This document shows positions 16,870-23,713 of a stretch of DNA of 64,000 bases, one piece after another. Source of the stretch: Pelomonas sp. Root1217. Its GTDB lineage: Bacteria; Pseudomonadota; Gammaproteobacteria; Burkholderiales; Burkholderiaceae_C. Made by a program: the position numbers and the translations under genes. The notes below the pieces were generated by a model that searched no databases, was not told where the DNA came from, and saw nothing but the letters and a program-made list of their open reading frames with translations. The stretch lies in assembly GCF_001425705.1 (NCBI RefSeq), contig NZ_LMDC01000001.1:1472486-1536485 (forward strand). Reading direction: 5' to 3'. The stretch's first letter is position 1. The number at the start of each line of letters is the position of its first letter.

Positions 16870-18006
16870 ATGTTCACGCCGCGCCCGGCCTACGCCGCCG
16901 ACCCGGCGCGCAGCCGCGGCCGCCGCCTGCCCGAGCCGGCCGCACCCACGCGCAGCGAATTCCAGCGCGACCGCGACCGCATCATCCACAGCACGGCGTT
17001 TCGCCGCCTCGTCTACAAGACCCAGGTCTTCCTCAACCATGAGGGCGATCTGTTCCGCACGCGGCTGACGCATTCACTGGAGGTCGCCCAACTCGGCCGC
17101 TCCATCGCACGCAGCCTGGGCCTGGACGAAGACCTGGTCGAGGCCGTGGCTCTGGCGCATGATCTCGGCCACACGCCGTTCGGCCATGCGGGCCAGGACG
17201 TGCTGGACGAATGCATGCGCGCCCATGGCGGCTTCGAGCACAACCTGCAGTCACTGCGCGTCGTCGATCAACTGGAGCAGCGCTATCCGGATTTCGACGG
17301 CCTCAACCTGTGCTTCGAGACGCGTGAGGGCATCCTCAAGCACTGCTCGCGACGGCATGCCGAACTCATCGAGGCTGTCGAACCTGGCGGCATCGCTACC
17401 CGCTTTCTGCGTGGCGGCCAGCCCAGCCTGGAAGCCCAGCTCTGCAATCTCGCCGACGAAGTGGCCTACAACGCGCACGACGTGGACGATGGCGTGCGCT
17501 CGGGCCTGATCGAGCTGGAACAGCTGCTGGATGTCGAACTGGTGCGGGAGCACTGGCGAGCGTCGCTGGATGCGCACCCCGGCCTGGCCGGCAAGCGCCT
17601 GCTGTTCGAGACGATCCGCCGCATGCTGTCGGCCCAGGTCTACGACATCATCGACGCCACGCGTGCGGCGCTGGCTGACGCAGCGCCCGATGGTGTCGAC
17701 GCCGTACGCCAGGCGGACAAACCGCTGCTGCGCTTCAGCCCAGACATGCGCACCAAGAGCACTGCGCTCAAGCGCTTCCTGTTCGGTAACCTCTACCGTC
17801 ACCCGCAGGTGCAATCCACGCGTGGCCGCGCCGAGCAGGTGCTGCGCGACCTCTTCGCGGCTTATTCGACCGACGCGACGCAGATGCCGGCAGACTTCGC
17901 CGAGCGCGCTGATCGTGAACGAGCCTGCGCCGACTACATCGCCGGGATGACCGATCGGTTCGCTATCCGCGAGCATCAAAGGCTGACAGGCAAGACGCTC
18001 TTCTGA
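16870..18006 (+). CDS. dgt: Deoxyguanosinetriphosphate triphosphohydrolase-like HD protein
   Basis: A 378-residue HD-superfamily dNTP triphosphohydrolase (dGTPase-like, type 2 subfamily). The metal ligands are visible as H68 in RTRLTHSLEV, the HD pair at 97-98 in ALAHDLGHTPFGHAG, and the later NLADEVAYNAHD with a conserved Asp. The N-terminus has the subfamily signature RSEFQRDRDRIIHSTAFRRL. It would hydrolyse dNTPs to nucleoside and tripolyphosphate, affecting dNTP pools. It starts one base after the aroKB stop, so it is probably the last gene of that operon. The length is shorter than E. coli Dgt (about 505) but usual for this subfamily. Confidence 0.9.
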   Translation: MFTPRPAYAADPARSRGRRLPEPAAPTRSEFQRDRDRIIHSTAFRRLVYKTQVFLNHEGDLFRTRLTHSLEVAQLGRSIARSLGLDEDLVEAVALAHDLGHTPFGHAGQDVLDECMRAHGGFEHNLQSLRVVDQLEQRYPDFDGLNLCFETREGILKHCSRRHAELIEAVEPGGIATRFLRGGQPSLEAQLCNLADEVAYNAHDVDDGVRSGLIELEQLLDVELVREHWRASLDAHPGLAGKRLLFETIRRMLSAQVYDIIDATRAALADAAPDGVDAVRQADKPLLRFSPDMRTKSTALKRFLFGNLYRHPQVQSTRGRAEQVLRDLFAAYSTDATQMPADFAERADRERACADYIAGMTDRFAIREHQRLTGKTLF

Positions 18007-18017
18007 TCCTATTTCAC

Positions 18018-18038
18018 AAAATGGGGTCGGAGTCGATT
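18018..18038 (+). repeat. Left inverted repeat of the REP-type transposase unit
   Basis: The 21-base sequence here (core GGGGTCGGAGTC) matches the reverse complement of 18055-18075 shifted to the right end at 18855-18875 at 17 of 21 positions. It lies 12 bases after the dgt stop and 47 bases before the transposase ATG. Confidence 0.7.
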
Positions 18039-18085
18039 ATCCTGGTCGCTTCTACCGTGGCCGCTGGGCCGACAAGGACGCACCC

Positions 18086-18811
18086 ATGGCCCGCCTACCC
18101 CGATTGATCCTGCCGGGTCAGCCCCACCATGTCATCCTGCGCGGCAACAATCGTCAGGCCATCTTCTTCAGTGACCACGACCGCGAGCACCTGCTGGTCG
18201 CATTGGCCGAGGTCGCGGTTCAGTATGGGGTGGCCGTTCATGCTTACGTGCTGATGGACAACCACCTTCACCTGCTGCTGACGCCGCCCGCTGTGGACGC
18301 TCTCAGTCGCATGATGCAAGCGCTCGGCCGCCGCTACGTGGCCTGGTTCAACACCCGTCATCAGCGCAGCGGCACGCTCTGGGAAGGGCGGTTCAGGGCG
18401 GGCTTGATCGAGGGCGAACGGCATCTGCTGGCCTGCATGCGCTACATCGAATTGAATCCAGTGCGTGCAGGACTGTGCCAAGACGCGGCGCAATGGCCCT
18501 GGTCCAGCGCCGCCCACCACCTTGGCCTGAAGCGCAGTGCGCTGGTCACGGAGCATGAACTGTATTGGTCACTGGGCAACACACCCTTCGAGCGCGAACA
18601 TGCCTATCGCGAGTTGATGGACCAGGGTGTCACCCTGCAGGAGCAAGCGCAGTTCACTGAGGCTGTGTTGCGGGGGCGGCCAGTGGGCGGCGCGGCGTTC
18701 CTGAATGCGCTGGGCGACATCCACCCGAAAGTCGCACTCAAACGGCCGCGCGGACGGCCGCGCAAAACGCCACTGGCGTCGTCGGAAACCAAGCCAACCG
18801 GAGTGGCATGA
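18086..18811 (+). CDS. REP-associated tyrosine transposase (RAYT, Y1/HUH family)
   Basis: A 241-residue TnpA_REP/RAYT protein, a single-strand DNA transposase domesticated in many genomes to mobilise short palindromic REP sequences. The HUH metal motif HLH is at 60-62 within LMDNHLHLLL. The probable nucleophile is Tyr 120 in MRYIELNPVRAG. The N-terminus MARLPRLILPGQPHHVILRGNN is typical. The C-terminal RPRGRPRK (220-227) looks like an AT-hook. The gene sits alone between dgt and gltB, bounded by the 21-base inverted repeats at 18018-18038 and 18855-18875. All motifs are intact and there is no frameshift, so it may be active. Confidence 0.92.
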   Translation: MARLPRLILPGQPHHVILRGNNRQAIFFSDHDREHLLVALAEVAVQYGVAVHAYVLMDNHLHLLLTPPAVDALSRMMQALGRRYVAWFNTRHQRSGTLWEGRFRAGLIEGERHLLACMRYIELNPVRAGLCQDAAQWPWSSAAHHLGLKRSALVTEHELYWSLGNTPFEREHAYRELMDQGVTLQEQAQFTEAVLRGRPVGGAAFLNALGDIHPKVALKRPRGRPRKTPLASSETKPTGVA

Positions 18812-18813
18812 CT

Positions 18814-18829
18814 ATGGCCCCATTTATTT
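18814..18829 (-). repeat. Partial copy of the transposase end sequence
   Basis: Read on the minus strand this gives AAATAAATGGGGCCA, resembling the start of the left repeat (AAAATGGGGTC). It begins three bases after the transposase stop and is probably a degenerate extra end or part of a hairpin end structure. Confidence 0.4.
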
Positions 18830-18854
18830 AACTTCATCACATTGATGGAAAATT

Positions 18855-18875
18855 AATTGACTCTGACCCTAATTT
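18855..18875 (-). repeat. Right inverted repeat of the REP-type transposase unit
   Basis: The reverse complement of these 21 bases matches the left repeat (18018-18038) at 17 of 21 positions, including the core GGTC-GAGTC. It lies 43 bases after the transposase stop and about 66 bases before gltB, so the mobile unit reaches into the gltB upstream region. Confidence 0.7.
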
Positions 18876-18882
18876 AATCAGG

Positions 18883-18911
18883 TTGCCGCAAATGCTGCAC
18901 TGCATTACGCT
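18883..18911 (+). promoter_or_regulatory. Weak candidate gltB promoter
   Basis: TTGCCG (18883-18888), a 17-base spacer and TACGCT (18906-18911) end 29 bases before the gltB start, just outside the right transposase repeat. Only half of the -10 positions match consensus. Confidence 0.25.

Positions 18912-18940: not shown

Positions 18941-23713
<4,773 letters not shown>

Follow-up and report, generated by a model that had tools for sequence, protein, structure and literature searches.

A RAYT gene lies between dgt and gltB in Pelomonas sp. Root1217, with inverted repeats at its two ends, and this arrangement raises the question of whether the gene and its flanks form a mobile element or a gene that has been domesticated in place. 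The window, i.e. the whole stretch of 64,000 nucleotides that we analysed (G000:C1:1472486-1536485 of a 6.65 Mb assembly), has the gene order dgt, RAYT, gltB, all on the + strand. In our view this is probably a RAYT of the TIRYT type (subclass 2.1, RAYT group 1) that has been domesticated, is inherited vertically in single copy and is accompanied by low-copy cognate repeats.

The RAYT gene and its position between dgt and gltB

A reading of the sequence alone (hereafter, the sequence-only reading) had described an intact RAYT with complete HUH and Tyr motifs, and this description held. The open reading frame (18086-18811, + strand, 241 aa) is intact, HUH is H60-L-H62 (NHLH from residue 59), and the tyrosine is Y120 in YIELNP. 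The protein scores above the cut-offs of Pfam Y1_Tnp (53.5 bits, cut-off 23) and of the NCBIfam equivalog REP_Tyr_transpos (88.5 bits, cut-off 80). In an alignment of 34 proteins the catalytic residues are conserved, and in the C-terminal PRGRPRK tail G223 and R224 are invariant and P225 is nearly so. The AF2 model built on the 34-row alignment has a mean pLDDT of 89, with low confidence in the tail (about 45-68 from residue 211 on). Its top match in the PDB is 4er8, the structure of E. coli TnpA_REP in complex with a REP hairpin, with which a profile search agrees (4.8e-07). The tail may be an AT-hook; among the literature matches listed, RAYT and AT-hook occurred together only in a herpesvirus paper (PMC6441497) that is unrelated by title.

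The motifs that Table 1 of Quentin et al. (2018; PMC6006769) gives for TIRYT, or TnpAY1 subclass 2.1 (RAYT group 1), namely NH.H, W[EQ] (WE here) and YIELNP in about 238 aa, are all present in the protein. Low copy number and the lack of a canonical REP are further points of likeness to that subclass, as the available text describes it. The same text gives subclass 2.1 a C-terminal HTH-like domain, whereas no Pfam HTH was found at E up to 10 in the four such RAYT proteins that we tested; the model does place C-terminal helices between residues 158 and 217.

The gene is single-copy, the other RAYT-like matches in its own genome being just 38% and 26% identical. The former of these identities belongs to a second, longer RAYT-like gene outside the window (L002, G000:C1:1399870-1400226), which has a 433-aa open frame and an HTH-looking C-terminus. 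Weaker second RAYT matches recur in most genomes of the genus.

The upstream neighbour is dgt (deoxyguanosinetriphosphate triphosphohydrolase; 16870-18006, + strand; NCBIfam dGTPase equivalog, 612 bits, cut-off 390), and the downstream neighbour is gltB (glutamate synthase large subunit; 18941-23713, + strand; 1695 bits, cut-off 1047). RAYT lies directly behind dgt in 19 of 20 genomes of the genus (Roseateles/Pelomonas), the two matches being 57-189 bp apart; the 20th, G010, has an assembly that is 83% complete and gave no orthologous RAYT match. For a wider comparison we used 80 named loci, the best 80 of 586 relatives. In 79 of these gltB is directly downstream of RAYT, 141-353 bp (in one case 707 bp) past the RAYT match, and in the 80th, L169, the sequence ends 50 bases after the RAYT gene. 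The pair also occurs at loci labelled Nevskia or Chitinophaga (L173, L184, L189, L192 and L209), which could reflect either transfer or mislabelled metagenome bins.

Among 16 other genomes of the family, RAYT is directly behind dgt in four (G024, G026, G030 and G032), within 5 kb of it in eight, and elsewhere or on another contig in three (G023, G034 and G035); dgt was not found in G027. We also read 20 stretches downstream of dgt from family and order genomes: six have RAYT between dgt and gltB, seven have dgt and gltB without it, and seven contain no gltB. In three of the six, RAYT is just 31-40% identical to that of the window. These divergent genes at the dgt-gltB junction (L233, L234 and L235, from G038, G052 and G024, respectively), at which two 3' repeats were seen by eye, may be either deep orthologues or the result of repeated arrival at one site. 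Empty dgt-gltB sites, which the sequence-only reading had suggested seeking in related strains, do exist in seven genomes, all from other families of the order, with gaps of 157-358 bp between the matches and with no end repeats seen by eye; none was seen among the genus genomes examined.

One could envision that RAYT belongs to a presently mobile, IS-like unit with terminal inverted repeats that was recently inserted between dgt and gltB. The inverted ends, the intact HUH/Tyr motifs and the seven empty junctions elsewhere in the order speak for such a unit, and the HUH/Tyr fold and catalytic residues are those of IS200/IS605 elements (IS608, ISDra2). Unlike those elements, RAYT is not multi-copy and gives no sign of excision or re-insertion; our genome copy and synteny searches found neither multiple near-identical copies nor, among the genomes compared, a polymorphic insertion. 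The shared site in the genus, the RAYT-gltB pair in nearly all of the best 80 of 586 relatives, the lack of a second close copy and a divergence like that of Dgt all stand against this explanation, which we regard as extremely improbable, and on synteny we reject a recent insertion. The sequence-only reading had left open whether its unit of about 860 bases was mobile or domesticated; the second alternative is supported and the first is not. The gene is fixed in place.

The RAYT protein is under purifying selection. Across 153 pairs from 18 of the 20 genus genomes, RAYT has a median pN/pS of 0.25 and Dgt one of 0.145. In the same 18 genomes the pairwise pN of the two proteins is correlated (r 0.83), as joint inheritance of the genes would lead one to expect.

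End repeats at the locus

Three repeat copies adjoin the gene. The 5' end repeat (TIR; 18018-18039, + strand) has the core GGGGTCGGAGTC at 18023-18034. On the other side, the proximal 3' repeat (18810-18830, - strand; core GGGGCCATAGTC at 18810-18821) overlaps the RAYT stop codon, and the distal 3' repeat (18854-18875, - strand) has the core AGGGTCAGAGTC at 18859-18870, 49 bp from the proximal core. The flanking 21-base inverted repeats of the sequence-only reading are exact as given (17 of 21 positions between 18018-18038 and 18855-18875), and with one more base (18018-18039 and 18854-18875) the match is 18 of 22. What it had called a partial copy at 18814-18829 is indeed a repeat copy, but it is better described as a conserved second 3' end, the proximal one. 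Because 2 of 1000 order-1 Markov resamplings of both flanks reached 17 of 21, the inverted pair taken alone is only moderately significant, or suggestive; the best 12-mer match of the flanks was reached in 163 of 1000 and is not significant. It is conservation in relatives, rather than the statistics of the pair, that settles the reality of the inverted ends.

In the genus we scanned 18 loci, leaving out G001, whose locus is cut short, and G010. The 5' repeat was found in 18 of 18, and another 3' copy lies at 49-50 bp in 16 of 18, where some of the matches are weak (7-12 of 12 letters). At L014 and L022 the scan was anchored on the proximal copy itself, and both carry a 49-bp 3' pair. TATNCT follows the 5' repeat in 16 of 18 loci and the 3' copy in none of the 18. 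The end anatomy of the genus, one 5' copy and two 3' copies in fixed register, is thus conserved.

Among the best 80 of 586 relatives the distal 3' repeat was detected by pattern in 73 (all except L144, L164, L169, L193, L194, L203 and L213). In every one of the 73 the proximal core is at 48 (51 loci), 49 (18) or 50 bp (4), and no core was seen at the remaining spacings between 35 and 65 bp, with 0.23 expected per spacing from shuffling. Since the 73 loci are kin to one another, the fixed 3' spacing represents conservation and not 73 independent events. A strict pattern found the 5' repeat in just 32 of the same 80 loci, as compared with all of the genus loci, and outside the genus the 5' repeat is therefore looser or otherwise placed.

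The repeats can be compared with the GGGGWSAS core of TIRYTs. Most relatives read GGGGTCAG, which fits, and the three copies of the window (GGGGTCGG, GGGGCCAT and AGGGTCAG) are each off by at least one letter. A canonical REP of the GTAG class is marked by a GC-rich palindrome with GT[AG]G at its foot; no such head was seen by eye in the three ends of the window. In 62 family-type loci, 354 of 434 cells of the distal-repeat palindrome are Watson-Crick pairs (permutation mean 340, p 0.0005; 220-223 when slid by one). This count left out 11 loci of the GACTC type, which is that of the window, and it is uncorrected for kinship among the loci; it offers modest evidence that the distal repeat may itself be palindromic. 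We also considered a 3' cruciform. Pairing of the proximal repeat with the left arm of the distal repeat (319 of 434 cells; permutation p 0.14) is not significant, and for this reason no cruciform is claimed.

A promoter-like sequence runs across the 5' repeat (18013-18043, + strand). It reads TTCACA-16-GATTAT (18013-18040), a 9 of 12 match (shuffles: mean 0.5, sd 0.6), and includes the genus-conserved TATCCT at 18038-18043; its first hexamer, TTCACA, shows no conservation in the genus. Judged from these letters, it may function as a promoter, and RAYT bound at the overlapping 5' repeat would then limit its own expression. A weak promoter-like sequence, TTGCCG-17-TACGCT, lies at 18883-18911, just past the distal repeat and upstream of gltB; it was noticed by eye and went unflagged in the promoter scan.

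The proximity of the 3' repeats to gltB suggests another explanation, in which RAYT is a fixed passenger whose loss would disturb a gltB promoter beside the 3' repeats, the protein having no present role. It is in keeping with this proposal that the 3' repeats sit in the short stretch before gltB in all of the 73 loci where they were found among the best 80 of 586 relatives. The pN/pS of RAYT in the genus and the conserved catalytic residues argue against a protein without a role, as does the joint change of ends and dispersed copies described below, and we hold the passenger explanation to be improbable.

Dispersed copies and repeat type between genera

That the ends are dispersed elsewhere as repeats, as the sequence-only reading had surmised, proved correct. 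With the 19-mer AAWKGGGTCRGAGTCRAWT as query, up to two mismatches and a reversed control, there are five matches in the own genome, two of which are the RAYT ends (control 0). Across 19 of the 20 genus genomes there are 113, of which 38 are RAYT ends (control 0). At three mismatches the own genome has at least 17 matches against one for the control, among the matches listed. No inverted doublets occur among its five matches. Because the 3' spacing is fixed and dispersed copies exceed the control, coincidental flanks can be rejected. The sequence-only reading had allowed for a fixed gene with such flanks and no other copies; the shared insertion in relatives agrees with that picture, but the dispersed copies and the fixed spacing do not.

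Of the 75 matches in the genus that are not RAYT ends, we fetched 74, in 71 loci (a match at the end of G001:C60 was left out), and added L137 from an exact search. Flank homology placed 68 of these 72 loci in 11 groups and left four single. The largest groups are groES-groEL (17 genomes), the hda-HAD junction (12) and C3 (12 loci). In C3 a DNA-alkylation-repair gene adjoins in 7 of 12, as judged by a pattern from a neighbouring frame that ends like the Pfam-tested DNA-alkylation gene; the locus of the own genome is not among the seven. Smaller groups lie at the start of an OHCU decarboxylase, of an outer-membrane efflux lipoprotein and of a DUF2783 protein, among others. Gene names come from one representative per group tested against Pfam, and the protein of C8 matched no Pfam family.

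At L067, L089, L124 and L120 the copy reads as the end of a protein: KIDSDPNL at the Hda C-terminus, MKLTLTPLF at the lipoprotein start, the DUF2783 start MNKLTLTPNF, and MSEIDSDPIF. We doubt that C9, at the start of a pseudouridine synthase, is an insertion: motif-free orthologues already read TTGACGCTGCCC, so this class of site resembles the repeat without a copy and some apparent copies may be convergent. Judged by eye, C4, C10 and the four singletons have the look of coding sequence or of chance matches.

The type of repeat differs between genera (all counts of types include RAYT ends). A GATTC-type pattern gave 24 matches in G025, four of which read GAGTCC, seven in G034 and six in G023, and the GACCCC type has 26 copies in G028; the control was 0 in 60 genomes. 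In ten genus genomes the GATTC pattern gave one or two matches each, all reading GAGTC except in G001, which has one GATTC copy. With up to two mismatches the GAGTC type is found in 19 of 20 genus genomes (control 0). With up to one mismatch it is found in 18 of 20, and outside the genus in G032 (16), G042 (5), G026 (1, its own RAYT end) and G050 (1, with no end repeat found at its RAYT), and in none of the other 36 genomes; there was one control match in all 60. The RAYT ends match the dispersed type of the same genome in the genus and in G023, G025, G028, G032, G042 and G057, the last with a dispersed doublet that reads GACTCCACTT like its RAYT ends. The exception is G034: it has GATTC-type copies, but at the ends of its RAYT the shared core is followed by GAGTAA and GATCAA. 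Between genera, then, end type and dispersed copies change together, in six of the seven non-genus genomes that we examined.

REPIN-like doublets, two inverted copies in one dispersed unit, occur in G025 (5), G034, G023, G057, G028, G015 and G009, in stretches that were picked because they held pairs; the copies are 57-79 bp apart, core to core, and that of G009 is a 28-bp palindrome. A near-perfect palindromic version of the repeat, ATTGGGGTCAGACCCCAATT, is found in G028 (L336, L337 and L346), with 26 copies in the one genome. The ends of two RAYTs of G057 (L342 and L343) are perfect palindromes whose stems differ (AAGTGG..CCACTT; GTAGAGGG..CCCTCTAC) but whose GGTCAGA loop is the same, and the ends of the second RAYT of G057 begin with GTAG before the palindrome.

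These features can be set beside three descriptions, each compared as far as its available text goes. TIRtrons, or TIRYTs (Di Nocera et al. 2013, PMC3733652), likewise combine a tyrosine transposase gene and flanking inverted repeats, dispersed families of moderate or low size, and dimers; in place of GTAG REPs they have a GGGGWSAS-like core, which most relatives fit here. What differs here from that description is the second 3' repeat at a fixed 48-50 bp, the lock to gltB, and dispersed copies kept at orthologous loci. For subclass 2.1 no REP-like sequences were reported (PMC6006769), whereas in related genera the ends are small palindromes, mostly imperfect and perfect in G028 and G057. With canonical REPtrons, or REPIN-RAYT systems (PMC2817692, PMC8049555), the locus has in common that RAYT is fixed and single-copy, that its ends co-evolve with the dispersed copies, and that inverted doublets occur. 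Unlike theirs, the repeats of the window have neither a GT(A/G)G head nor a GC-rich hairpin, and we found at most tens of copies where those systems have hundreds. Among the literature matches listed, GGGGTCAGAGTC occurred as text in papers unrelated by title; we would venture, weakly, that neither the double 3' end nor the retention of the groES-groEL site has been reported so far.

For a domesticated RAYT, the reading that we prefer, one could propose that the HUH/Tyr core recognises and cuts single-stranded repeat copies in the manner of TnpA_REP. On very rare occasions the protein would have given rise to new copies elsewhere, single or in doublets, which in most of the representatives read lie at the boundaries of genes, and the gene itself would no longer move. 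Since the genus has few copies, most of them at old sites that are shared, movement may have ceased.

Retained sites at groES-groEL and hda-HAD

Particular dispersed sites are retained in the genus, and one hypothesis for this is that RAYT and its dispersed repeats make up a small regulatory system, in which the protein would bind the repeats kept at groES-groEL, hda-HAD and other gene boundaries and alter the expression of the adjoining genes. The groES-groEL copy (L138 in the own genome, G000:C1:1293304) is an argument for it, since of the 19 genus genomes that could be resolved 17 have kept it; G003 has 8 of 12 bases and G017 none, losses that weigh against a regulatory site, and G010 is unresolvable. 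The mean pairwise identity of the core in the 17 genomes is 0.96-0.98, as compared with 0.32-0.33 in blocks 12 nt and further on the groES side, a spacer that is saturated (the ungapped comparison is lowered by indels). Because the 17 were found by the motif, so that core identity is partly ascertained, the 17 of 19 retained is the fairer figure. The near-constant distance to groEL also favours regulation: the repeat begins 35 nt upstream of the groEL ATG in 13 of 17 genomes and 32-36 nt upstream of it in all 17. The blocks on the groEL side, on the other hand, are conserved too (0.91, 0.55 and 0.78), so that translation may be what keeps the groEL leader. At the equivalent position G026 reads GATCTGACCCCAATTA and G032 has a weak form, again in favour, although both were read by eye; in the other genera of the family that were read the repeat is absent by eye.

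The hda-HAD site is intact, with up to two mismatches, in 12 of 20 genus genomes, which is consistent with a function. By eye, it is degenerate in G005, G007, G014 and G016, halved in G002, and absent in G003, G017, G010, G026 and G032, and the decay in the first five argues against one.

On balance we regard a small regulatory system as rather doubtful and a regulatory role as possible. Stated for the genus, the proposal is that the Roseateles TIRYT might act as a host regulator, with the kept groES-groEL and hda-HAD copies and a few other boundary copies as its candidate binding sites, and we offer it only tentatively on these comparisons. If it were true, a tamed transposase and its former ends would constitute a small regulon touching chaperonin, replication control and, via the double end on its own 3' side, glutamate synthase. 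What exactly RAYTs do is described as unknown in the available text of PMC8049555; now that a gene, its one-plus-two end anatomy and a few locus-retained repeats can be named, the question becomes testable. For subclass 2.1 as a whole, the fixed double 3' end of 48-50 bp is a structural constraint on any model of recognition.
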